IMG/VR virus record: IMGVR_UViG_3300020457_000089
Coordinates: 1-24,822 of that record
DNA length: 24,822 bases
Origin: a virus
Reading direction: 5' to 3' (one strand)
A program made the position numbers and the translations under genes. The notes below the pieces were generated by a model. The model saw only the letters and a program-made list of their open reading frames with translations, made no database searches and had not been told where the DNA came from. Of the stretch, positions 1 through 15,711 are shown piece after piece. Numbering within the stretch: the stretch's first letter is position 1; each line of letters opens with the position of its first letter.

Positions 1-362
1 TAAATTAAATCTCCTTCATTAGGTCTACCATCTACAGCAAGATTCAATGCTGGATTAGCAGACTGTTCCCATCTTCTACGTGATACAACAAATTGTATCT
101 CATCGGATACCCTCAAACCAAACTTACTTACAAACTCAGCACCAGCACCAAATCCTTCTACGTTCACAAGGAACATCTCTATCATATAGCTTTGGTTAAA
201 TTCTGATTGTATAACTTCACCAAGAGACTTATCTTTAAGATGTACTCTAGGAATATAAAACACATCAGAACCAAACAACTTGATCTGTTCATCAACCAAG
301 TCTTGTACAAGATTCTGTTCAGTGGCAACACCACCATGTTGAGGGAAGTATACTTTTTTCAT
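1..362 (-). CDS. 14: Neck protein gp14, 5' part only
   Basis: This is the first 120 codons of a gene that runs off the low-coordinate edge of the window, too edge-bound to be listed as a full ORF. Translation begins MKKVYFPQHGGVATEQNLVQ and continues through DLVDEQIKLFGSDVFYIPR and later VSRRRWEQ. I recognise this as the N-terminus of the T4-like neck protein gp14 of cyanomyoviruses. gp14 works with gp13 in the head-completion/neck complex that seals the filled capsid and accepts the tail. Its ATG overlaps the stop codon of the gp13 gene in an ATGA arrangement, which suggests translational coupling; no strong Shine-Dalgarno is visible. T4 gp14 is about 256 residues, so roughly half is present here. 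Identification rests on recalled family sequence and on the gp13-gp14 order, not on a database search. Confidence 0.85.
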   Translation of the reverse strand, partial: MKKVYFPQHGGVATEQNLVQDLVDEQIKLFGSDVFYIPRVHLKDKSLGEVIQSEFNQSYMIEMFLVNVEGFGAGAEFVSKFGLRVSDEIQFVVSRRRWEQSANPALNLAVDGRPNEGDLI

Positions 363-1174
363 CCGATCATATCAAATGGTGGTAATTCATATGTACTTGC
401 TGATGCATCTTCAATAGCAGCAATCTCTTTCTCGGCATCTTCAAAGATTTCTCTACCATTAATAGCAACTCCACCAGGAAGTTGTATACCATTAAACTTA
501 ATTAGGTTCTGACCCCACTGTCTTTTAATAAGAGCAGTAGTATATTTCTTTAAGAAGACATCACTATAAACCTGTCCAAAGCTTTCAGGATCTATTGCTC
601 TGTGGCATTCAACAATAACATGAACATCTTCGTTCATCATGTCCTCACCAACATCAAGATATAATCTATCCTGTCTCATGTTAAATCTAAACTGAACAAA
701 AGCACCATTGTTAAGTACCATGTCCATAGTTTCCATCCAAGTCTTAACCATATAATAGTTAAGAAAATCAAGAGAACCTACAGCATATAAGTCATTCAAG
801 AAGATCTGATACTCAATACCAAATAGGTTATTCCTTACAGCATTACTAGCAAGACCAAATACCTTAGTAACACCAACAACATCAGCAGGAAGTTCAAGAT
901 ACTTATCTCTCGTTTTCCATTCTGTAGTATTAGGAGCAGTACCTATGGTTGTTACAGTATCTGAAGTTTGAAATCTTGTCATGTCATCTGCTGTTAAGAC
1001 ATGCTTCATGTATGCAAGCTCTACACCATCATAATGACGCATACGATAGTATTGTAATGCATCATCAATTGAGTCCTCTATCTGATCGTCATCTACATTG
1101 ACTTCTAGTACAGGGAACCCCAACTTTCTTAGACAGTAATCTTTTAGTTCTGCCCTATTGGTGGGTTCAGCCAT
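359..1174 (-). CDS. 13: Neck protein gp13
   Basis: The 271-residue product begins MAEPTNRAELKDYCLRKLGF and continues with an acidic helix-rich segment (VNVDDDQIEDSIDDALQYY). This matches the conserved N-terminus of gp13 neck proteins in T4-like cyanophages. T4 gp13 is about 309 residues; cyanophage versions are somewhat shorter, as here. The known role is head completion: gp13 and gp14 form the neck to which the tail attaches. The adjacent gp14 start, overlapping this stop codon, supports the call. The start is unusual. The ATG lies directly after a T6 tract that closes a strong hairpin, and the only Shine-Dalgarno-like sequence (AGGGG, about 8 bases upstream) lies inside that hairpin. A late promoter octamer overlaps the hairpin. 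Translation is therefore likely to depend on which promoter made the RNA (see findings). Confidence 0.87.
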   Translation of the reverse strand: MAEPTNRAELKDYCLRKLGFPVLEVNVDDDQIEDSIDDALQYYRMRHYDGVELAYMKHVLTADDMTRFQTSDTVTTIGTAPNTTEWKTRDKYLELPADVVGVTKVFGLASNAVRNNLFGIEYQIFLNDLYAVGSLDFLNYYMVKTWMETMDMVLNNGAFVQFRFNMRQDRLYLDVGEDMMNEDVHVIVECHRAIDPESFGQVYSDVFLKKYTTALIKRQWGQNLIKFNGIQLPGGVAINGREIFEDAEKEIAAIEDASASTYELPPFDMIG

Positions 1175-1177
1175 AAA

Positions 1178-1207
1178 AAATACCCCTAGTGTGTCCTAGG
1201 GGTATTT
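1178..1207 (-). terminator. Hairpin with T-tract in the gp13 leader
   Basis: On the minus strand the sequence forms a 12-bp perfect stem (AAATACCCCTAG paired with CTAGGGGTATTT) around a six-base loop. It is followed by a T-tract that runs straight into the gp13 ATG. It has the form of an intrinsic terminator for the 170-residue gene upstream. It also buries AGGGG, the only plausible gp13 ribosome binding site. The stem is strong in its CCCCTAG core and AT-rich at its base. Confidence 0.8.
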
Positions 1208-1210
1208 ATA
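1203..1210 (-). promoter_or_regulatory. T4-type late promoter for gp13
   Basis: The octamer TATAAATA on the minus strand is a perfect match to the T4 late promoter element, which is read by the phage sigma factor gp55 with the gp45 clamp. By the usual T4 spacing the transcript would begin near 1197, giving a leader of about 23 bases. The octamer overlaps the first arm of the hairpin at 1178-1207, so late transcripts should lack most of that arm. The start point is inferred from spacing, not measured. Confidence 0.72.
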
Positions 1211-3732: not shown

Positions 3733-6700
3733 CTATGCCATTGTAGCAAGGAAGTAACTAAGACTATTAGCAGGATTATCAACATAAGCTTTAACTGCAC
3801 CAGCAGTAGCAAATTGTGTATGATCCGCAGAAGTCAAATCAGTTATGACGGTCTTACCCATCATTGTACTCTCTGTAATAACAGAGGTTCCGTTAATGGT
3901 GAGACCTTCACCACTTGCAAGTTCAATACCTTTGTTGAAATTAAACTTGTCGTTAGAAGACAACCATTGAATTGTCTTGTTGGTTGTACCAAGAACAGTT
4001 AAACCACCAGAATTAGCAGTTGTATCTGTAGCACCACCTGTTGCTAATGCAGCACCAGCAGCACTTCCAGATCCTTGGAATACTTGGTCAAGTGTTACTG
4101 TAGTTCCAACAACAGCAGTTACAATACCTCCAGAAGGAAGTGTAACTGTACCACCACCAGATGTTAGCGTAATTGCTACACCAGGAGCGATGTTGTCCAT
4201 ATCACTACAGTTGGTGATATCTGCTGAACCAGTAGATATATCACCAGTAAAGTTACCAACGGCAACTTGACCCAATTCAATGTTACGATCCTTAGAAGTT
4301 AACGTAACAGAATTGATAGATGTTGTTGTACCTTTAACTGTTAAGTTACCACCAATAGTGAGGTTACCACCTATTGCTGAAAGGTTGTCAACGTATGTCT
4401 TTGTTGCTTTCTGTGTAGCAACCTTCTGGTCACTGTTCTGTGACAATGTACCATCAGTTGAGAATTCGTTAATAGCAGCACCCAACTGAGCACCGATAGA
4501 ACCAAGTCTCAAGCTTGATAGACCAGATAGGTCAAACGCAGAAGCGTCTAGTGTTGCCTTACCAGTTGACTGCTCAACCTTAAAGAACTTACCAACAGAG
4601 AAGTTACCATCTTGGTCAGTAGATACGTAGTAAACACGACCTGGACGATCTTCATTAACTTCGTTAGATGGTACGTTATTTGATAGTGGGAGACCAGGCC
4701 AGTTAGTGTTAGCCTTACTTCCAGTACCAACGTCTAGGAAGTCATGAGCAGTTAGACGTACTTGTGAGTACCTATAACGTGTCTTGAATCCTTGTCCGTC
4801 TCCAGCTTCAACTGTCTTCTCATCTGCCAACTGTAGTGTTGTGATACCAGTTGTATCAGCAGTAACAGTTGTAATCTTCATGAACTCATTATCAATCTTG
4901 ATATAGTCATCAGGATCAAGACCAATATTTGCAGCAGCAACACGAAGTGTTAAATCATTAACAGCAACGTCTTCAATAATTTCATCCTGAGATCCAATCT
5001 TAGCATTAACTATTGCAATTGAAGCAGCAGCAGCGTGTGATCCAGCAGTTGTACCCTCTTGAGCACGTTCTGCTTCAACAGATGTTGCAGATGGGAATGA
5101 AACAACCTTGAACATCTCATCATTAATAATGATGTATCCGTTAATAGTCATTCCAGTAACACTTCCAACTTGCATTGTTACAGGTGAAGATGCACCTTGA
5201 GCAAGTGATCCAGAAAGTGTTGTTGAGTTTCCAGCATCAGCATACAATGCGATAGCAGTAGTACCATCATGTGTTGCAGAAGCACTTCCTAAGAGACCTC
5301 TATCAACTCCTATTGTACCTCTACCATCTTGAGCTACGTAACTAGCATTAGAGATAACGTATGAACCAGGGTCATCGTTAACTCCATTATCATCAAGAGA
5401 AACAGATCCACCAGCATCAGGAGCAGTACTTAAACCTACAACTGTAAGAATGAATCCTTTCTGTCCTTGAACAGCATCTGTATTGTTTACAAGAGTTGCA
5501 ACAACACCAGATGTCTGACCAGTAACTGTCTCGCCTTGTGAGAAGGTTCCCTTAACTGGGAAGTAATACAAGAAACCAGAAGCATTCTGGTCATTGATTA
5601 GTTCTCCAACAGCACCAGATGTTCCACCAACAAGTCTTTCTCCGATTGTAAGTGTTCCACTGAGAGGAGTGTTAACATCAATCGTAAGACGCTTACCTTT
5701 GACGTTACCATCAATGGTTGTCTCAGAAGAATCAAATCCTCTAGCAATTGCACCGTACTTACCGTAAGATGAGTTACCAGTAACAGCACGGATTCTACCA
5801 CCACGTGTAGCGGAGTAAGAAATATGTGCGTAGTATGTGAAGGATGATACAATCTCAGTTGCAGCAGCATTAGTAACGTAAATACCAACACCACCATCTA
5901 GTACCTGAGTGAATGAGTCAAACACCATTGACTTGTAAGAAGGTGTTGACGAAGCATTAAAGTGGTTATGTACAGCACCATCAAGTAGAATACCAACTGC
6001 TGCTCCAGAGAAGATAGTTGAGTTCTGAATATATGGTGACTTAGTAATTGGTGAATTAGGATTGAATCTAAAGAACACACCCTTAATTGTGGCAGTGTCA
6101 AGATCCTTATCATCAGCACCAGCTTGGAATCCAGTCATTCCCTCAAATACCATCTCCTTGATAGTAGTATGAGAACCAAGCAAGCACATTGTAGACTCAG
6201 AGTTAATCCGAGTTGCTACAGTAGAAACATCAATGAATGGCGATGAACTGGTTGTAGCAGACAAATCACCATTAGCAATAGCAGAAGTAACTATACCAAC
6301 AAGTGTTGTAATTGAGGAAGCAACATTAGCACATGCAGGGTTAGAACCATCAGCAGTAATTGTGAGGTCTCTTGTCTGTGTAATAGTGTTACCAGCAGAA
6401 GCAGAAACAACTAAGTTACGAGCAACTTCAGTACCAACTGTTTCAATGTAGTTAGCAAGTGCTGTATCTTGAGCATTGTCTCCAGTTATAGGAGTACCAG
6501 CAAGCAAGGTAGAAGTATAATCATATACCTTATTGTTATTACCATGCTTGACGTTGAAACCAATTGCATCAACTAATTCAGCAAGACGTTCTTTAACAGT
6601 AGCTTCAGTACCATTTACAGCACCAACATTTGCTACGTGGCGATGATAAACTTCAGAAGCAATGAATGCTCTGTTTGTTATCAATAAGTCACGTGCATCA

Positions 6701-8481
6701 GCAGCCTTGTTGTCTATGATATCAACATACTTATCAGAAGTAGTCCATTCTCCACCAGTTAAGTTAAGTAGATGAACATTGTTCTGATAGTCAGAATCAA
6801 GAACCATAGCGGTCTTAGTTCCAGCAGCATTAGTAACAGTCTCACCAAATCTTAGATGAGATACATTAGAAGCAAGTGTTAAAGCTTGCATATCGGAATC
6901 ACCGAGAGCAGGCTTAACGATAGAAGTTCTTAAGTTATCACCAATAATTGAAACAAACTCTGGAACAATGATTGGTAGAATTTCTGTATATACACCAGAC
7001 TTAACAAAGATTGTAACTAGATTTGTAGGAGAAGGTTTTTCAGAACCTGTTAATCCACCAATAAAATCACAAGCATGTCTTAGAGTACCAAATGCTCTAG
7101 AAATACTCTTACCGTGGTTAGCATCAGAACCTTCTTTCGTAACATAGAAAACACTTTCTGATACGTTGTTTCTTTCCCACTGAGGTAATAGAGGTGATCC
7201 ACCAACTGTTAGTACTTGACCACTTGCTTCTCTTTCAGCAGATACGTTACCAACTCTTGTGATTCCATCAGCAACAGCAGAAACAAATGTATGATTTGAT
7301 GTATCAGAAGAAATACCAACATTAACTGTAAATGTATTTGCATCAACAACAGTTAGTTCTAGGAACTTCTTGCTAGCTGGGTCAGTTGCACGTGGATAAG
7401 GGTGGTTACTAGCGTTACCATCCTTAGCACAAGTAAATGTGATTGAACCATCAGCAAACTTAACAAAGTCTCCTGTAGAGAATCCATGAGAAGCAACAGT
7501 AATTTGAAGTAAACCTGTAGTAGGGGTATAGTCTGCACCTGTCGCTGTATGCTTTGTCTGAGAAGCGTTAGCGGTTGAAGCACCAGATGGAAGGGCAATC
7601 CTATTAACACCACTTGCTGCTTGATAGAGAAGGTCTCCAGTCTCTTGTAGAACCTGTGCTGTATCACCACCCTGTGCAACATAGTTCCAGTATGTTCCGC
7701 CTGGATCTAATTCAGGAGCTGTTGAAGCTCCAGAAGTATCTGATGCCTTACAGACATAAGAGTTTGAGTTTCTGTTAACAACATCACCTAACTGGTATAC
7801 AGTTGCAGAATCCCATCCACCTCTCCAGTTGAATCCTTCTGAAATAAGATCCCAATTAGCAGAAGTTGTAGGAGCAGTACCAGTAGAACCTACCTTATTA
7901 ACGTAAGTGTTACCACCATATCTTACAACATCACCTGGGGCGTATGTTGTAGCAGCAGCGTATTCACCTTGAGCAGAAAAACCAGTAGTAATTACATCCC
8001 AATTTGTTGTATCGTTATTAGGAGTAGTAGCACTTGCATGTGTTGTCTTACTAATATAGCTGTAACCTCTATAAGTTACAATGTCTCCCTTCTGATATGG
8101 ATCATTTGCTGTCCATGTATCTTCAAAATTTAGACCTTCAACATAGACCTCAAATTTTGTAGTGTCAAATGTTGCTCCAGAAGTATGACCACTAATACAA
8201 CGATATTGTGTATTACCAAACTTAACAACATCGTTAATCTTATACCAAGTAGTTGCTGCCCAATCTCCTTTAGCTTGAGTACCTTCACCTTGAAGATCCC
8301 AATTATTACCACCAACATCTACTGTATAGAATGATGTTTCTGCGTTTGCGGAAGTGTGGTTCTTTACACAAACATATGAGTTTGCACCGTACTTGACGAT
8401 ATCGTCAATGACATAAGCAGTGGAAGCAGCCCAATCGCCTCTCCACTTAAACTTTAGTCTGCCGAGTCTAAAATCTGCCAT
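3733..8481 (-). CDS. Tail fibre/spike with CBM5/12-like repeats and beta-helix
   Basis: The product is 1582 residues. Residues 12-270 hold five repeats of the type GDWAASTAYVIDDIVKYGAN-SYVC, ending in aromatic residues. This is the pattern of carbohydrate-binding modules of families 5/12 (chitin-binding type). Residues 315-410 form another beta module (SHGFSTGDFVKF ... FTCAKDGNASNHPYP). Residues 443-830 begin FYVTKEGSDANHGKSISRAF and continue with IFVKSGVYTEILPIIVPEFV and SIIGDN, typical of pectate-lyase-like right-handed beta-helices in tail spikes. No catalytic residues can be assigned. Near 1300-1400 lies RVYYVSTDQDGNFSVGKFFK and a TQKATKTYVDN segment, with a second AVKAYVDN near the C-terminus, both common in phage fibres. 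A TAGGA Shine-Dalgarno precedes the ATG and the gap to the upstream gene is only 11 bases. It is probably a glycan-binding appendage of the tail or baseplate; its exact location on the virion is unknown. Confidence 0.8.
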   Translation of the reverse strand: MADFRLGRLKFKWRGDWAASTAYVIDDIVKYGANSYVCVKNHTSANAETSFYTVDVGGNNWDLQGEGTQAKGDWAATTWYKINDVVKFGNTQYRCISGHTSGATFDTTKFEVYVEGLNFEDTWTANDPYQKGDIVTYRGYSYISKTTHASATTPNNDTTNWDVITTGFSAQGEYAAATTYAPGDVVRYGGNTYVNKVGSTGTAPTTSANWDLISEGFNWRGGWDSATVYQLGDVVNRNSNSYVCKASDTSGASTAPELDPGGTYWNYVAQGGDTAQVLQETGDLLYQAASGVNRIALPSGASTANASQTKHTATGADYTPTTGLLQITVASHGFSTGDFVKFADGSITFTCAKDGNASNHPYPRATDPASKKFLELTVVDANTFTVNVGISSDTSNHTFVSAVADGITRVGNVSAEREASGQVLTVGGSPLLPQWERNNVSESVFYVTKEGSDANHGKSISRAFGTLRHACDFIGGLTGSEKPSPTNLVTIFVKSGVYTEILPIIVPEFVSIIGDNLRTSIVKPALGDSDMQALTLASNVSHLRFGETVTNAAGTKTAMVLDSDYQNNVHLLNLTGGEWTTSDKYVDIIDNKAADARDLLITNRAFIASEVYHRHVANVGAVNGTEATVKERLAELVDAIGFNVKHGNNNKVYDYTSTLLAGTPITGDNAQDTALANYIETVGTEVARNLVVSASAGNTITQTRDLTITADGSNPACANVASSITTLVGIVTSAIANGDLSATTSSSPFIDVSTVATRINSESTMCLLGSHTTIKEMVFEGMTGFQAGADDKDLDTATIKGVFFRFNPNSPITKSPYIQNSTIFSGAAVGILLDGAVHNHFNASSTPSYKSMVFDSFTQVLDGGVGIYVTNAAATEIVSSFTYYAHISYSATRGGRIRAVTGNSSYGKYGAIARGFDSSETTIDGNVKGKRLTIDVNTPLSGTLTIGERLVGGTSGAVGELINDQNASGFLYYFPVKGTFSQGETVTGQTSGVVATLVNNTDAVQGQKGFILTVVGLSTAPDAGGSVSLDDNGVNDDPGSYVISNASYVAQDGRGTIGVDRGLLGSASATHDGTTAIALYADAGNSTTLSGSLAQGASSPVTMQVGSVTGMTINGYIIINDEMFKVVSFPSATSVEAERAQEGTTAGSHAAAASIAIVNAKIGSQDEIIEDVAVNDLTLRVAAANIGLDPDDYIKIDNEFMKITTVTADTTGITTLQLADEKTVEAGDGQGFKTRYRYSQVRLTAHDFLDVGTGSKANTNWPGLPLSNNVPSNEVNEDRPGRVYYVSTDQDGNFSVGKFFKVEQSTGKATLDASAFDLSGLSSLRLGSIGAQLGAAINEFSTDGTLSQNSDQKVATQKATKTYVDNLSAIGGNLTIGGNLTVKGTTTSINSVTLTSKDRNIELGQVAVGNFTGDISTGSADITNCSDMDNIAPGVAITLTSGGGTVTLPSGGIVTAVVGTTVTLDQVFQGSGSAAGAALATGGATDTTANSGGLTVLGTTNKTIQWLSSNDKFNFNKGIELASGEGLTINGTSVITESTMMGKTVITDLTSADHTQFATAGAVKAYVDNPANSLSYFLATMA

Positions 8482-9359: not shown

Positions 9360-12300
9360 TCAAATAATCCAGACCTGTACATGTGGTGGCTGGAATAGTT
9401 GTACTTGTATAAAGGCATTACCACTGATTCTTGCAGTACCACTACCGATGTATGGAGCAATTGCAAATGCTTCATCAAGGTTATTAACATTAGATATTCT
9501 TCCAGAACCTTGATATGCACGAGTGCGAATGTCATAACTATCTCCAGTGATGTCAATCTCAACGTATGGCTGCTCTGCGAATGTAAGTAGTGGATCGCCT
9601 GATGTACTTCCAACAAGAAGAGTACCGCCCTGACTGAGTTCTCTTGCTGTTGTTGTCTCTGAAATCCTCGTTCCGTAGAAGGAGAATAGTAAATCTTTTT
9701 CTTCTGGATTGAAGCTGATAGATTCCGCAGCTCCTGTAAGAACTGGGATATTTCCAAATCCAACAAAGTCTCTTGCTCTGGTTGTATGAGCATCTCCACT
9801 GAGAGATAATGTACCTTCTCCAGTGTGTGCAAATCTGACAAGAACTCCTGCTTCTCCAGTTGTAGTGAGAATTCCTGTTCCAATTTCTCTTGCTGTTCTG
9901 GAATCTGCACCTTCTCCAGTAAACGAGAAGAGCATCTGCCTTTCGTCTGGATTGACGGTAAGAGATTCCGCAGCACCACTGAGTTTTCTGAGAGATCCAG
10001 TACCAACAATACTGCGTGTAGTTGTAAGAGTAGATTCTCCAGATGTCTGGAATAGAATGGTACTTGGTTCTGGTACGATTGCGATTGCTTCTGCTGCACC
10101 AGAGAAGTTGTAAAGTGAACCAGTACCAGTAATATTGTAATGAACAGTGAACTTGGCTTTTCCACTGACCTTCGTCTGAACAAATGGTTGCTCTGCGAAT
10201 GTGAGAATTTCTGGATGTGTTGTACCAGTAAGCTTGAGTGTTCCACCCTTGCTGATTTCTCTGACAAGTCTTCTCTCTTCTTTTTCTCCAGTAAAGGAGA
10301 AGAGCATTTGCTTCTCTTCTGGATTGACAGTAAGAGACTCTGCTGCACCAGAGAATTTCTTGAATGTACCAGAACCAATAACATGTGGTACATAATGAAT
10401 CTTGGCTTCTCCAGTAACAGGAATTGTTCCTGAACCGTGGAACGCATGAGTCCTGAGAACTGGATCTGCTTTTCCATCAATATCAACTTCAATCTGTTTG
10501 GTCTCAGCAACACCAAGAGATTCACTACCTTCACCTGTAAAGGAGAATAGAAGTTGTCTCTCGTCTGGGTTGACAGTGATAGACTCTGCTGATCCACCAA
10601 ATTTCCTGAATGTACCAGAACCAAAGTGAGTAAGAGAGAATACAATATGTACTTCTCCACTGACTCTGTATAGACCCTGAGTTTCGTATGCAGATGCTGT
10701 AACAACAGATGCACCACTGAATCCAAAGAGAGTACCAGATCCAATTGTAACAACAGATTTGCTGTCTGCTCCTTCTCCAGTAAACGAGAAGAGCATTTGC
10801 TTCTCGTCTGGATTGAAGGTGATAGATTCGGCAGCACCACTGAGTTTTCTGAGAGATCCAGTACCAACAACACTTGGTACATAATGGGTTTTGGCTTCTC
10901 CAGTAACAGGAATTGTTCCAGATGAGAACTCTGTAAATCCAAGTAACTGAGTAGATTCTCCAGTAAGACGTAGAGTACCAAATCCTGTTTCTGCAACAGA
11001 TACTTTCTCTGCTTCTCTCGTTCCAACAAAGGAGAAGAGTAATTGCTTCTCTTCTGGGTTGAATGTAATAGACTCGGCAGCTCCAGAGAATTTCTTGAAT
11101 GTACCAGAACCAATAACATGTGGTACGTAATGAGTCTTCGCAATACCAGAAGTATAAATTTCACCAGAACCTGGATACTTAGGAATGAATCTGAAGTCTG
11201 CTGCTTCTGTCCATACCTTGATATCTCCAGAACCAGTAAAGGTTTCTGTATGTTTTTCGCTGATCCTTGTACCAACAAAGGAAAACAGCATTTGCCGTTC
11301 TTCTGGATTGAAGGTAATAGATTCTGCTGCACCAGAAATAACTGGTAGATTTCCAGTACCAACAATATGAGGAACCCAATGAGTCTTGGCTTCTTCTGTT
11401 CGTATTGTGATACCACCTTTGGATACCCAAGAAGGTTGCCAATCGTATGTTGTCCATCTATCAAACGGACCAGGAACGAACTTGAATAGAACTTGACTGG
11501 TATCTGGTGAGAATCCAACGGTCTCAGCAGCTCCACCCATACTCCATAGAGTACCTTTACCAAAGGTACGAAGACTGAAGTTAGGCTTAGCATCACCAGT
11601 AACATCAAGTACACCGTAACCATTCCACTGAGGTGGTACAACAATTTCTGCATCACCGTAGATGGTAATACCATGTACACGTACATCACTTTCTCCAGTG
11701 AATACTTCACGGAATGTTCTAATGGCAGGGCCAGATGAACCACGAAGAGTACTGATAGATCCGAATGGACATACCTTGGATAGAGTTCCAAGAATCCAAC
11801 CATAGTCACGAAGTTCATCTTCAGGATCAACAATAAATCCATATTCTTCAGTGAGTGATGGTGATGTAACCTGAATTGGTACTGTGTATGTGACTCCATC
11901 ATCAATAGATAATGTCTGTCCAAGATCAACAGTTGAACAACCAGTAGATGCAATGGTATTCTCACTTATAGATCCACTTATTAATGTGCATGTTGCAAGT
12001 GATGCATCAATAATAAATCCATTATCAATTTCTGGATTGTCATAACATACATTAAGATCATATACTTCTGTATGTTTTTCTTCCGAAGGTTCAGTGAGTT
12101 CTGGTTTAACAGAACGTAAGGTGATAGTACCAGAACCAACATAGGATTCTGTTTCTGTAATATAAGACCCACTAAGAGATTTGAAGACTCCGCTTCCGTA
12201 TTCGTGGTATGTAAGTAGAGGTGGTAATGCAGTTCCAATAAACGAGAAGAGCATTTGCTTCTCGTCTGGGTTAAAGGTAAGAGACTCAGCAGCACCAGAG

Positions 12301-15300
12301 AATGTAGAGAACCTACCGTCACCAATAACACCAAGACTCTGTGCAAGATTTGCAGAATCAGTAATTCTGAATAGACCTTCACCAACCTCTGCCTTACTAA
12401 AGACATTTGCAGAACCAGCAATTGCAAATAGAGTTCCAGAACCAACGTAATCTCTAGCACGAGATGTATCAGAAGAACCAAGTACTGTAACTCCACCACG
12501 ACCAACCCAATTAGGCTGGAATTTAGATGCAGCAGAACCAATAATATCAACAAGGGTATAACGCATACCCATTGCAATAGTACCAAGAATCCAATCATAA
12601 TCACGAGGTTCATCAGCATTGTCACTGATGAATCCATAATCTTCAGAGAATGTTGGTTGTGTGATCTGATTTGGTACTGAGTAGGTAGCACCAGGAGCAA
12701 TAGAAAGTTCTGTAGATACCTTAATACATCCACTTGGAGCAGTGGTGCTGGCAAGAACATCTCCATTAGTATCAACACATGTGTATGTTGAAGGATCAAT
12801 AATTAATCCATAATCAAGATCTTGGAATGGAATCTCAGATGTGAGGTTGTAAGCCTTAGCAAATATCTCTTCTGATATCTCATCACCAAGATTCTTAAGA
12901 AGTACAGTTCCAATCTGATCGTAATCAGGATCAAAGTATAGATCATAAGGATGAGCAATACCTAAACCATAATCTGCAAGATCTCTCAGTGTTAATACAT
13001 CTGGTTTAGCAGACTTAAGATGAATATCACCAGTACCTACCCAATCAAATGTTGCTCTCTCGTCACCACCAGCGAAGTTGTAAAGTATTCCATCACCTTC
13101 AAATGTTCCATGAGTAAATTTAAGACTACTGTATCCACTGGTAAAGGAGAATAGTAATTGCTTCTCTTCTGGATTCCAAGTAGCAGACTCAGCAGCACCA
13201 GAGAATGTGGAGAATGAACCATCACCTTTATGCTCAACCTTGAAGCTATATGATGCTTCATCATACATTCCATTAATGTGTCCATCACCAATAGCGAGTA
13301 GACTAAAGTTGGTGATAGAAGCACCTTGAGGTTTGAAGAGACCAGTACCAAGTACACTAGCGAATAGTGGAAGTAATGCCTTACCAGTAATCTTGAATAA
13401 ACCACCTTCACTTGTAAAGTTACGAGTTCTTGGACTACCAGCATTACCAGTAATATCAAACATACCATAAGGTATGCCATGAGCATGAGTTCCAAGAATC
13501 CAACCATAGTCTTCATCGGGACTATGAATATCAGAAACAAGACCGTAATCTAAAGTATTCGCTGGAGTTGTATACTGTGCAGGAATACTATAATTTGCAT
13601 CAAGAGTAACAGTCTCATTCTGATCAACTCTAGCAGCACCACTTGGGCAAGTAGTATCAGAAGAAATTGTCTGAGTATTAAGAGTTGTTATTTGTGCTAA
13701 TGTAGGATCAATAATCAGACCATAATCAAGATCTATTGAAGGTACAAATGCACTGACATTATATGATTCAGTATGTTTCTCTTCTGAGAGTTCTGTTAGT
13801 TTTGGTTTAACTGAACGTAACCTTAGACCACCAGATCCTTCATAATCAAATGTTCCTTTCTCTGCTTCAAGCTTAGCGAAGTTCCTAAGTCTTCCAGAAC
13901 CAACATATACTTCGGTATGCTTCTCGCTAATACGTGATCCAACAAAGGAGAAGAGTAATTGCTTCTCTTCTGGATTGAAGGAGAGAGATTCAGAAGCACC
14001 AGAGAATGTAGAGAATACACCATCACCAAGTATTCCAATTCCAAATTTAACAGTACTGGTACTAAGAATTGCGAACAATCCATCGCCTGGTTGTAGTAGA
14101 CCGAAGTTAGTCTTGGATGCTCCAAGGAATCTAAATCCACCACTACCACGTACACCAACATCAAGTGGTACTTGTGCAACACCACTAAGCTTACTGATGT
14201 AACCACGACTTGTCCAACTAGGTAGGAACTTATCAGCACAACCATTATGGGGATCAATCTTAAGTCCACCAAACGGAATGAGATCACTACTGTCGTAGAT
14301 GTAACCCCAGTTCTGTTGCTTGGAAGCGATGGTTGTAATATCACCCCAATCAATTGTACTAGTAGGAGCATTAAGTGAAGCTGCTACTTGATATGTCTGT
14401 CCAGATACAACTCTCGCTGTTGTATCAACTTTAACAATGCATCCAGTTGCATTACCAGATACATCTCCATTAATAGTTTCTTCTGTTGTACAAACAGAAA
14501 GTGTTCCGTAATCACGGCGAGTCCAAGGAACAATTGCAGACTCATTATAGTTCTCTGTATGCTTCTCATCCGAGAGTTCATACTTAATACTACTGAGTGG
14601 TCTAGATCTAATATCCTCTAGTACCCAATCAGCAATCTCATCTAATGTGTATAGGAATGGTTTCCTACTTACGATCTTAATAGTACCAGATCCATCCCAT
14701 GCAAAGACTCTCTCATCTACAGCATTAGAGAAATTATTGAGGGATCCATCACCAATGTAACATTCACTGTTCTTCTGTATAGCTTCTCCAAGGAATGAGA
14801 AGAGCATCTGCTTCTCATCTGGATTAATTGTGAATGACTCTGATGCACCAGTAAACTTCTTAAAGCTTCCACTACCAATAAGTGAAGCACCAATTCCAAT
14901 AATAGAATTTCCTTGTAGCGGAAGAATTCCCCTGCCATAGGTGGCAGGAGAATAGTCAACATCCGCAGTACCAGATAGACCTTTGACCTTACCGTCAATG
15001 ATAATACCGTATACAGCAGGAGATGTCTGTCTACCGAATGATATAAGACTTCCCTCACCAACCCATGCACTAGTAGCTTTCCATGAAGCAGCATTGAGTG
15101 TCTTACTAAATCCAAAGGATTCTAGATCTGTGACATGAATGATGCGTCCATATTCAACCTGTGTTGCATTAAGGTCTGCAACTAGACCATTATTACTTGT
15201 TGTTGTAGCATTCTGCGTTATTGATCCGAAGTCAACTTCAGTATACAGATCAAGAATTGCAGGATGATAACTATATGATTTACTCTCTTCAGCATTATTG

Positions 15301-15674
15301 AATACCAAGAACCTACTTGGTGCTGGTATTAATATACGATTACTCTGAGGATCTAAGTTACCACTTAGTTCATCAGTTGTCCATGTATATACTGGACCTC
15401 CTTGATGTCCAACATAACCATCAGGTACATCTTGAACAGATGTTTGAGCACCATTTAATATTCCTAATCCAGATCTATAACTTGTAGTATTGTATATACT
15501 ACGACCTGCATAATGTGCAAGAGTGCCATCAATATCTTCAAGCTTTATTGCTGGACCTTGATTAAATTTAAAACTTTCTAAACCTCTAGCAGCAAACGAG
15601 CCAGACAAAACCTCAGACCTATAATCACTTATAGGTCTAAAGACTCTTCCTCCTGACTCGTAGGTGTAGAACAT
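9360..15674 (-). CDS. Giant 2104-residue repeat virion protein
   Basis: The product begins MFYTYESGGRVFRPISDYRS and ends FQPPHVQVWII. It contains 13 copies of a module whose core is GAAESITFNPEEKQLLFSF, normally preceded by IGSGTFKKFS and often followed by TGEG or GTR. In the N-terminal half these cores are 800-900 bases apart. They are separated by a second module with EEKHTESYN, DYGLIIDPS and RDYGWILGT motifs, present in about four copies. In the C-terminal half the cores mostly repeat every 245-250 bases (about 82 residues). All modules look beta-rich, with no coiled coil, signal peptide or enzyme motif. A long fibrous or sheath-like appendage is likely, and similar repeats occur in structural proteins of marine T4-like phages as far as I recall. 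The ATG has no Shine-Dalgarno and no late octamer, and follows a terminator by only 8 bases. Confidence 0.82.
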   Translation of the reverse strand: MFYTYESGGRVFRPISDYRSEVLSGSFAARGLESFKFNQGPAIKLEDIDGTLAHYAGRSIYNTTSYRSGLGILNGAQTSVQDVPDGYVGHQGGPVYTWTTDELSGNLDPQSNRILIPAPSRFLVFNNAEESKSYSYHPAILDLYTEVDFGSITQNATTTSNNGLVADLNATQVEYGRIIHVTDLESFGFSKTLNAASWKATSAWVGEGSLISFGRQTSPAVYGIIIDGKVKGLSGTADVDYSPATYGRGILPLQGNSIIGIGASLIGSGSFKKFTGASESFTINPDEKQMLFSFLGEAIQKNSECYIGDGSLNNFSNAVDERVFAWDGSGTIKIVSRKPFLYTLDEIADWVLEDIRSRPLSSIKYELSDEKHTENYNESAIVPWTRRDYGTLSVCTTEETINGDVSGNATGCIVKVDTTARVVSGQTYQVAASLNAPTSTIDWGDITTIASKQQNWGYIYDSSDLIPFGGLKIDPHNGCADKFLPSWTSRGYISKLSGVAQVPLDVGVRGSGGFRFLGASKTNFGLLQPGDGLFAILSTSTVKFGIGILGDGVFSTFSGASESLSFNPEEKQLLFSFVGSRISEKHTEVYVGSGRLRNFAKLEAEKGTFDYEGSGGLRLRSVKPKLTELSEEKHTESYNVSAFVPSIDLDYGLIIDPTLAQITTLNTQTISSDTTCPSGAARVDQNETVTLDANYSIPAQYTTPANTLDYGLVSDIHSPDEDYGWILGTHAHGIPYGMFDITGNAGSPRTRNFTSEGGLFKITGKALLPLFASVLGTGLFKPQGASITNFSLLAIGDGHINGMYDEASYSFKVEHKGDGSFSTFSGAAESATWNPEEKQLLFSFTSGYSSLKFTHGTFEGDGILYNFAGGDERATFDWVGTGDIHLKSAKPDVLTLRDLADYGLGIAHPYDLYFDPDYDQIGTVLLKNLGDEISEEIFAKAYNLTSEIPFQDLDYGLIIDPSTYTCVDTNGDVLASTTAPSGCIKVSTELSIAPGATYSVPNQITQPTFSEDYGFISDNADEPRDYDWILGTIAMGMRYTLVDIIGSAASKFQPNWVGRGGVTVLGSSDTSRARDYVGSGTLFAIAGSANVFSKAEVGEGLFRITDSANLAQSLGVIGDGRFSTFSGAAESLTFNPDEKQMLFSFIGTALPPLLTYHEYGSGVFKSLSGSYITETESYVGSGTITLRSVKPELTEPSEEKHTEVYDLNVCYDNPEIDNGFIIDASLATCTLISGSISENTIASTGCSTVDLGQTLSIDDGVTYTVPIQVTSPSLTEEYGFIVDPEDELRDYGWILGTLSKVCPFGSISTLRGSSGPAIRTFREVFTGESDVRVHGITIYGDAEIVVPPQWNGYGVLDVTGDAKPNFSLRTFGKGTLWSMGGAAETVGFSPDTSQVLFKFVPGPFDRWTTYDWQPSWVSKGGITIRTEEAKTHWVPHIVGTGNLPVISGAAESITFNPEERQMLFSFVGTRISEKHTETFTGSGDIKVWTEAADFRFIPKYPGSGEIYTSGIAKTHYVPHVIGSGTFKKFSGAAESITFNPEEKQLLFSFVGTREAEKVSVAETGFGTLRLTGESTQLLGFTEFSSGTIPVTGEAKTHYVPSVVGTGSLRKLSGAAESITFNPDEKQMLFSFTGEGADSKSVVTIGSGTLFGFSGASVVTASAYETQGLYRVSGEVHIVFSLTHFGSGTFRKFGGSAESITVNPDERQLLFSFTGEGSESLGVAETKQIEVDIDGKADPVLRTHAFHGSGTIPVTGEAKIHYVPHVIGSGTFKKFSGAAESLTVNPEEKQMLFSFTGEKEERRLVREISKGGTLKLTGTTHPEILTFAEQPFVQTKVSGKAKFTVHYNITGTGSLYNFSGAAEAIAIVPEPSTILFQTSGESTLTTTRSIVGTGSLRKLSGAAESLTVNPDERQMLFSFTGEGADSRTAREIGTGILTTTGEAGVLVRFAHTGEGTLSLSGDAHTTRARDFVGFGNIPVLTGAAESISFNPEEKDLLFSFYGTRISETTTARELSQGGTLLVGSTSGDPLLTFAEQPYVEIDITGDSYDIRTRAYQGSGRISNVNNLDEAFAIAPYIGSGTARISGNAFIQVQLFQPPHVQVWII
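9700..11360 (-). repeat. Tandem repeats of about 245-250 bp in the giant gene
   Basis: Copies of the GAAES-type core fall near 9725, 9970, 10095, 10340, 10590, 10840, 11085 and 11330. Most are therefore 245-250 bases apart, with one short interval of about 120. Neighbouring copies share long runs of near-identical DNA (for example around gagaagagcatttgcttctc), not just similar protein. This points to fairly recent duplication or gene conversion between units. Confidence 0.8.
12200..14860 (-). repeat. Long 800-900 bp repeats in the giant gene
   Basis: GAAES-type cores near 12290, 13190, 13990 and 14840 are separated by 800-900 bases. Between them lie related copies of the EEKHTE/DYGLIID/RDYGWILGT module. 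These are more diverged than the short repeats downstream, so this half of the gene seems to have grown by older, longer duplications. Confidence 0.7.
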
Positions 15675-15682
15675 AAGTCAAT

Positions 15683-15711
15683 AAAAAAGGGGATTGCAAA
15701 ATGCAACCCCC
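15683..15711 (-). terminator. Intrinsic terminator before the giant gene
   Basis: On the minus strand GGGGGTTGCA pairs with TGCAATCCCC across a three-base loop (10 pairs, one G-U), followed at once by six T. This is a convincing rho-independent terminator for the 472-residue gene. It sits in the 77-base gap in front of the giant gene, whose ATG follows the T-tract by only 8 bases. Confidence 0.82.

Follow-up and report, generated by a model that had tools for sequence, protein, structure and literature searches.

A late promoter, an intrinsic terminator and a ribosome-binding site appear to be fused in front of the neck gene gp13 in a T4-like cyanophage-type genome

Introduction

The closest described counterpart of the element reported here is the leader of T4 gene e, in which masking cuts lysozyme synthesis approximately 100-fold (PMC3014915). 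This leader, which reads TTTTATAAATACCTTCTATAAATACTTAGGAGGTATTATG in the T4 genome (sequence checked in NC_000866), carries a late TATAAATA in the first arm of a hairpin in which AATACC pairs with GGTATT next to the ATG, so that the Shine-Dalgarno sequence is held in the stem, while the late RNA lacks the first arm. Further switches of this kind have been described for soc, gene 49, I-TevI, segB, and mobE (PMC3014915, PMC2988022). In soc, the late promoter lies upstream and the hairpin at the start site (PMC3014915), whereas in the leaders of I-TevI, segB, and mobE the late promoter is placed so that the late RNA is free of the masking hairpin (PMC2988022).

Two other kinds of element invite comparison. 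Leaders consisting of TTATAAATACCCCCAAAATTGGGGGTATTTTATG or a near copy precede a PHROG 2114 gene in 174 Kuttervirus records, and in one of these genomes (KF669653, 62832-62888; L628) the depositors annotated a terminator overlapping a ribosome-binding site; from its sequence, this leader is likely a fusion of late promoter, terminator and ribosome site. Ordinary intrinsic terminators, for their part, combine a hairpin with a GC core and a T-run soon after the stop codon of an upstream gene. A class of late promoters is known from cyanophages (PMC2984593). Within the open-access literature searched, which leaves out most subscription journals, neither a description of the present element in cyanophages nor a map of transcription start sites was found.

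Results

Gene neighborhood of the element

Judged by its sequence, the window, that is, the whole 24,822-nt stretch of DNA analyzed here, is a piece of a T4-like cyanophage-type genome. The best named matches of its gp13 are mostly proteins of Synechococcus phages (50-59% identity), and the ATG of gp14 overlaps the gp13 stop codon (ATGA). No gp55, gp33 or gp45 gene was seen in this 24.8-kb stretch, which is itself a fragment. The coordinates of the genes and of the leader between them are collected in Table 1.

Table 1. Features of the gp13 leader and of the genes on either side of it
Feature	Position	Strand	Remarks
gp14, head closure Hc2	1..362	minus	PHROG 460; 3' end beyond the window
gp13, neck protein / head-tail adaptor Ad2	359..1174	minus	PHROG 211
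gp13 start codon ATG	1174-1172	minus	
Run of six T	1175..1180	minus	3' of the GC core, adjoining the start codon; tail of intrinsic-terminator type
Hairpin second arm, CTAGGGGTATTT	1178..1189	minus	
AGGGG, probable gp13 Shine-Dalgarno	1183..1187	minus	Within second arm; anti-SD duplex -6.6 kcal/mol
Hairpin loop, GACACA	1190..1195	minus	
Hairpin first arm, AAATACCCCTAG	1196..1207	minus	Perfect 12-bp hairpin spans 1178-1207
Predicted late transcription start, A	1197	minus	6th base after the octamer; purines peak here in 254 cyanophage promoters
T4-type late promoter octamer, TATAAATA	1203..1210	minus	Exact match; 28 nt 5' of gp13 ATG
Octamer/hairpin overlap	within 1203..1210	minus	3'-most five bases of the octamer double as 5' part of the first arm
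Upstream gene, 170 aa	1229..1741	minus	Same strand as gp13; unit whose RNA would be stopped
Leader, TTTATAAATACCCCTAGGACACACTAGGGGTATTTTTTATGG		minus	

The gene upstream of gp13 evolves fast, its identity being only 30-72% in relatives whose gp13s are at least 82% identical. In 18 close relatives, the same-strand upstream gene stops 14-31 nt before TAAATA. We considered that this boundary might be a site where unrelated upstream genes are swapped, but close relatives gave no support, as 149 of 153 gene pairs are homologous. The genes upstream of gp13 in the window include tail-fiber genes and bear late-type promoters of their own, and an element at this boundary would therefore separate two late units rather than early from late expression.

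Three observations concern this upstream region in its own right. The 1582-aa tail-fiber protein (3733-8481, minus) contains four stretches matching CBM_5_12 (Pfam), which is unexpected given the presumably cyanobacterial hosts. A strong T-tailed hairpin, GGGGGTTGCATTTTGCAATCCCC followed by TTTTTT and without a late promoter, is found at 15689-15711 (minus), at a distance of 14 nt from the annotated start of a 2104-aa ORF (9360-15674), which it precedes; since a second hairpin (15611-15642) lies inside the ORF as listed, translation may in fact begin deeper within it. Finally, a 20-base hairpin, GAGAAGCAATTACTCTTCTC, occurs twice within the same ORF, at 11032-11051 and 13948-13967 (minus), approximately 2.9 kb apart, which suggests internal repeats.

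Anatomy of the gp13 leader

The first-pass annotation of this DNA had described a late octamer, a 12-bp hairpin with a T-tract and a Shine-Dalgarno sequence inside the second arm of that hairpin. All three are present as described: the octamer is exact, the stem is perfect and followed by six T, and AGGGG matches the anti-SD better than any other site within 30 nt upstream of the gp13 ATG. This is the only perfect hairpin of at least 12 bp in the window, whereas dinucleotide shuffles yield a mean of 0.017 (5 of 300 shuffles contained one). The octamer alone is not rare, with five occurrences against 2.1 expected, and the window has several late-type promoters, just one of which overlaps a hairpin. 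The unusual feature is thus the overlap of octamer and hairpin, not the octamer itself.

The hairpin begins A-rich, and its core, CCCCTAG/CTAGGGG, has a predicted stability of -12.5 kcal/mol and is followed by the six T, that is, the stable GC-containing stem and T-run that typify intrinsic terminators. A terminator scan of the window by a simple rule nevertheless failed to list it, probably because the A-T pairs at the base of the stem were counted as stem, which left too few T. An Rfam search of the window returned no match to a curated RNA family.

Predicted transcription start and RNA folds

The position at which late transcription would begin was estimated from 254 promoter-like TAAATA sites preceding ORFs in eight cyanophage genomes. 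At these sites, the sixth base after TAAATA is A in 52%, G in 26%, and C in only 6% of cases, and A is likewise favored there in T4, RB49, and KVP40. The sixth base after the octamer in the gp13 leader is A1197, matching this purine peak, in line with the earlier prediction, made from T4 spacing, of a start near 1197.

The long RNA folds at -22.6 kcal/mol (z -3.6). When only the segment from promoter to ATG is considered, the read-through RNA is predicted to fold at -18.9 kcal/mol, against 0.0 for the late form. RNA beginning at 1197 is predicted not to form the hairpin, and the optimal fold of this RNA does not outdo that of a single shuffle. The claim that the late form would be missing most of the first arm holds with a small correction: 10 of the 12 bases would be gone, while A1197 and G1196 would be kept. 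Two hallmarks of the T4 gene e class recur here, with AGGGG placed in the stem of the long RNA and a late RNA that is predicted to be unfolded and without most of its first arm.

Conservation of the hairpin in related leaders

To place this leader among its relatives, we assembled a set from four IMG/VR protein scans, loci found by pattern, and nine phage records, which provided 328 gp13 leaders, 195 of them unique. Classes were assigned by folds, with 14 labels corrected by hand. The geometry of the window, complete with T-run, is found in 44 of the unique leaders, and 11 have the stem without the T-run. In 43 others the promoter sits in the loop of the hairpin and in six it is just 3' of a terminator; 36 have a promoter only, and 55 have neither. 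On a gp13 tree, the window-type leader is scattered over several separated clades, requiring approximately 10 changes, and is near-identical across them. Over 38 nt, the leaders L023, L038, L323, L332, and L352 differ little or not at all, and their gp13s belong to separated clades; such identity could reflect either strong constraint or leader transfer between phages.

Compensatory changes in the stem of related leaders, which the first-pass annotation had proposed looking for, were found. In an alignment of 26 leaders, 91% of cells pair, and 12 cells are changed on both sides yet still paired, as opposed to 3.2 in shuffles, with none of 500 shuffles reaching this number. The covariation score is 0.143 versus 0.089 in shuffles, all 500 of which score lower; a weaker signal is the count of doubly changed pairs, three, which 42 of the 500 shuffles equaled or exceeded. 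The combinations seen at variable positions include CC/GG, TC/GA, TC/GG, CT/GG, CA/TG, and CG/TG, all of which pair, and TAAATA is kept in these relatives. The loops vary (GAAA, GAAACA, GTAAAA, and others, including one of 11 nt).

Linkage of stem and T-run

The stem and the T-run are conserved jointly. Across 219 loci, some of which are one contig fetched twice, 186 of the 188 leaders with a T-run retain both variable central pairs of the stem, as opposed to none of the 31 that lack one; thinning reduces these counts to 51 of 53 and 0 of 12, respectively. Placed on the tree, this link amounts to about four to five independent contrasts, four for and none against (p = 0.125, not significant). 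We take the joint retention of stem and T-run as a sign that selection has acted mainly on intrinsic termination.

The first-pass annotation had assigned two effects to the hairpin in read-through RNA, termination and masking of the ribosome site, and in one reading of this model the leader is mainly a translational switch, in which read-through RNA hides AGGGG and late RNA does not, termination being minor. The location of the Shine-Dalgarno sequence within the stem throughout this leader class is what such a switch requires, and T4 gene e, with the same geometry, TATAAATACC...GGAGGTATTATG, achieves its strong reduction in lysozyme synthesis without a T-run. Moreover, for the leaders without a T-run (L007, L010, L012-L015, L022, L450) the predicted folding energy is -5 to -10 kcal/mol in the long form and about 0 in the late form, which makes masking plausible in these leaders and as a second lock in the window. 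Two results weigh against masking as the principal function, namely that the central pairs are never both intact once the T-run is missing, and that the loop-type leaders mask little. We therefore regard a mainly translational switch as unlikely, though it retains a real share of the probability. Because the stem is perfect only together with the T-run, and because other cyanophages have terminators that do not mask, termination moves up to the apparent main role and masking down to a plausible back-up. The T-run, lying between ribosome site and AUG, could alternatively serve translation.

Specificity for gp13

A 27-nt pattern built from the element, TAAATACCNNTAGGAAACTANNGGTAT, was used to scan IMG/VR, which gave at least 80 readable sites. 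Among the matches listed, 79 lie directly before gp13 and one is cut by a contig end, so that all 79 sites with a readable gene precede gp13, down to 45% gp13 identity; for most of the full-length matches, identity to the gp13 of the window is approximately 45-73%. A looser design, TATAAATACCCC...GGGGTATTT, also precedes genes other than gp13, namely the Kuttervirus PHROG 2114 gene and small ORFs. The design thus appears to be reused across genes, with the common cyanophage form belonging to gp13. The looser design was seen as well before genes resembling GIY-YIG or HNH homing endonucleases in IMG/VR (L112, L105, L082), one of which (L105) has an early stop after the leader.

This specificity, along with an AGGAAAC loop region strongly conserved in many clades, is what one would expect if the hairpin were a protein-binding site, for a translational repressor or for gp13 itself, to which the promoter overlap is secondary. 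We consider this very improbable: loops differ in both length and sequence (GAAA, GACACA, an 11-nt loop), the stem varies in sequence with compensation, and a repressor would miss the main message, since the late RNA is predicted to be without the hairpin. Least credible of all is that the hairpin has no function as RNA, its complementarity arising by chance or from fixed promoter and Shine-Dalgarno sequences, for although TAAATA and GGTA are each constrained independently and the T-run and first-arm bases could be passively inherited in close relatives, the CC following TAAATA is near-universal here while cyanophage late promoters have C at frequencies of 0.14 and 0.13, compensatory changes occur in the stem, the hairpin stands well clear of what shuffles produce, and the same pairing recurs in separated clades.

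Other geometries in front of gp13

Different arrangements of the same parts precede gp13 in other cyanophages. The promoter is within the loop of a T-tailed hairpin in S-PM2, S-RSM4, Syn1, and S-WAM2, and right 3' of a terminator in S-BM3. In the loop-type leaders, a gap of approximately 14-20 nt separates the hairpin arm from the ATG, which leaves little masking of the ribosome site. The loop and after-terminator forms would therefore follow the same logic without hiding that site. In S-CAM3, S-CAM1, S-SKS1, and P-SSM2, the gp13s are similar and no hairpin was found in the leader, which means that the element is not essential. T4 and RB49 have a GC-rich hairpin shortly 5' of gene 13, without TAAATA.

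We rejected the idea of a genome-wide rule, since T-tailed hairpins holding TAAATA number only zero to two per cyanophage genome. The cyanophage genomes together contain eight, including four at gp13, against at most four for rearrangements of these letters; the T4, RB49, and KVP40 genomes have none. TAAATA also occupies the loop of a T-tailed hairpin at two other genes, one in S-CAM3 (L213, hairpin from 5809), where the second arm contains the strong ribosome site AGGGGAGG, and one in S-BM3 (L264, hairpin from 11908, minus).

Discussion

The reading that we favor, and hold to be probable, is that terminator, late promoter, and ribosome-binding site are fused in this leader at the boundary between the tail-fiber genes and gp13-gp14. 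A single stretch of 45 bases seems to combine a stop signal, a start signal, and a lock on the ribosome site, so that the protein would be made only from locally initiated RNA. RNA entering from upstream would copy both arms, fold the 12-bp hairpin followed by UAUUUUUU, and terminate just before the gp13 AUG. Polymerase carrying the late sigma factor would instead bind the octamer and start near 1197, inside the hairpin, producing an RNA that cannot terminate there for want of a first arm and in which AGGGG is free. Should some upstream RNA leak through, its Shine-Dalgarno sequence would stay paired, and poor translation would be expected.

The likeness to T4 gene e that had been proposed for this locus is borne out by the identical geometry (NC_000866; PMC3014915). 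The differences are that gene e has two late promoters and no T-run 3' of its stem, and that its switch keeps the early and late expression of a lysis gene apart, whereas the gp13 element serves a neck protein and has late-type promoters upstream. By analogy, the gp13 element may work like the gene e switch, with termination added, between two late-type units. The soc leader is less similar, as its stem covers the AUG and its Shine-Dalgarno sequence is in the loop; the leaders L012 and L025 are nearer to that form. The design shared with the I-TevI-type switches also precedes the endonuclease-like genes of L112 and L082, but I-TevI, segB, and mobE are selfish genes silenced in early or middle transcripts, whereas gp13 is a core virion gene. 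The Kuttervirus leader belongs to another phage family, precedes another gene, and has no late promoter among its listed features. In contrast to an ordinary intrinsic terminator, the gp13 element holds a promoter whose transcript is predicted to be unable to form the hairpin, and it finishes at the start codon of the next gene.

More tentatively, and with slightly less than even confidence, we propose that T4-like cyanophages have a recurrent device in which a late promoter starts inside an intrinsic terminator. With one hairpin, such a device would block RNA from upstream at two levels, transcription and translation, yet its own promoter would not see it. It would have been retained, lost, and formed again in several arrangements at a single boundary, where the neck-protein unit begins. 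Cyanobacteria are not known to have Rho, and hairpin terminators should therefore matter more in such hosts.

If this is correct, one compact element would insulate a conserved assembly gene from the neighboring fast-changing fiber genes in a common group of marine phages, and the supply of gp13 and gp14 would be set by one promoter, whatever happens upstream. S-PM2 and Syn1, among other cyanophages in culture, would allow a clear test, and the element offers a naturally occurring blueprint for an insulated promoter made of one part. The gene e type of switch would then reach beyond lysis and homing genes to include a core virion gene, with termination added.
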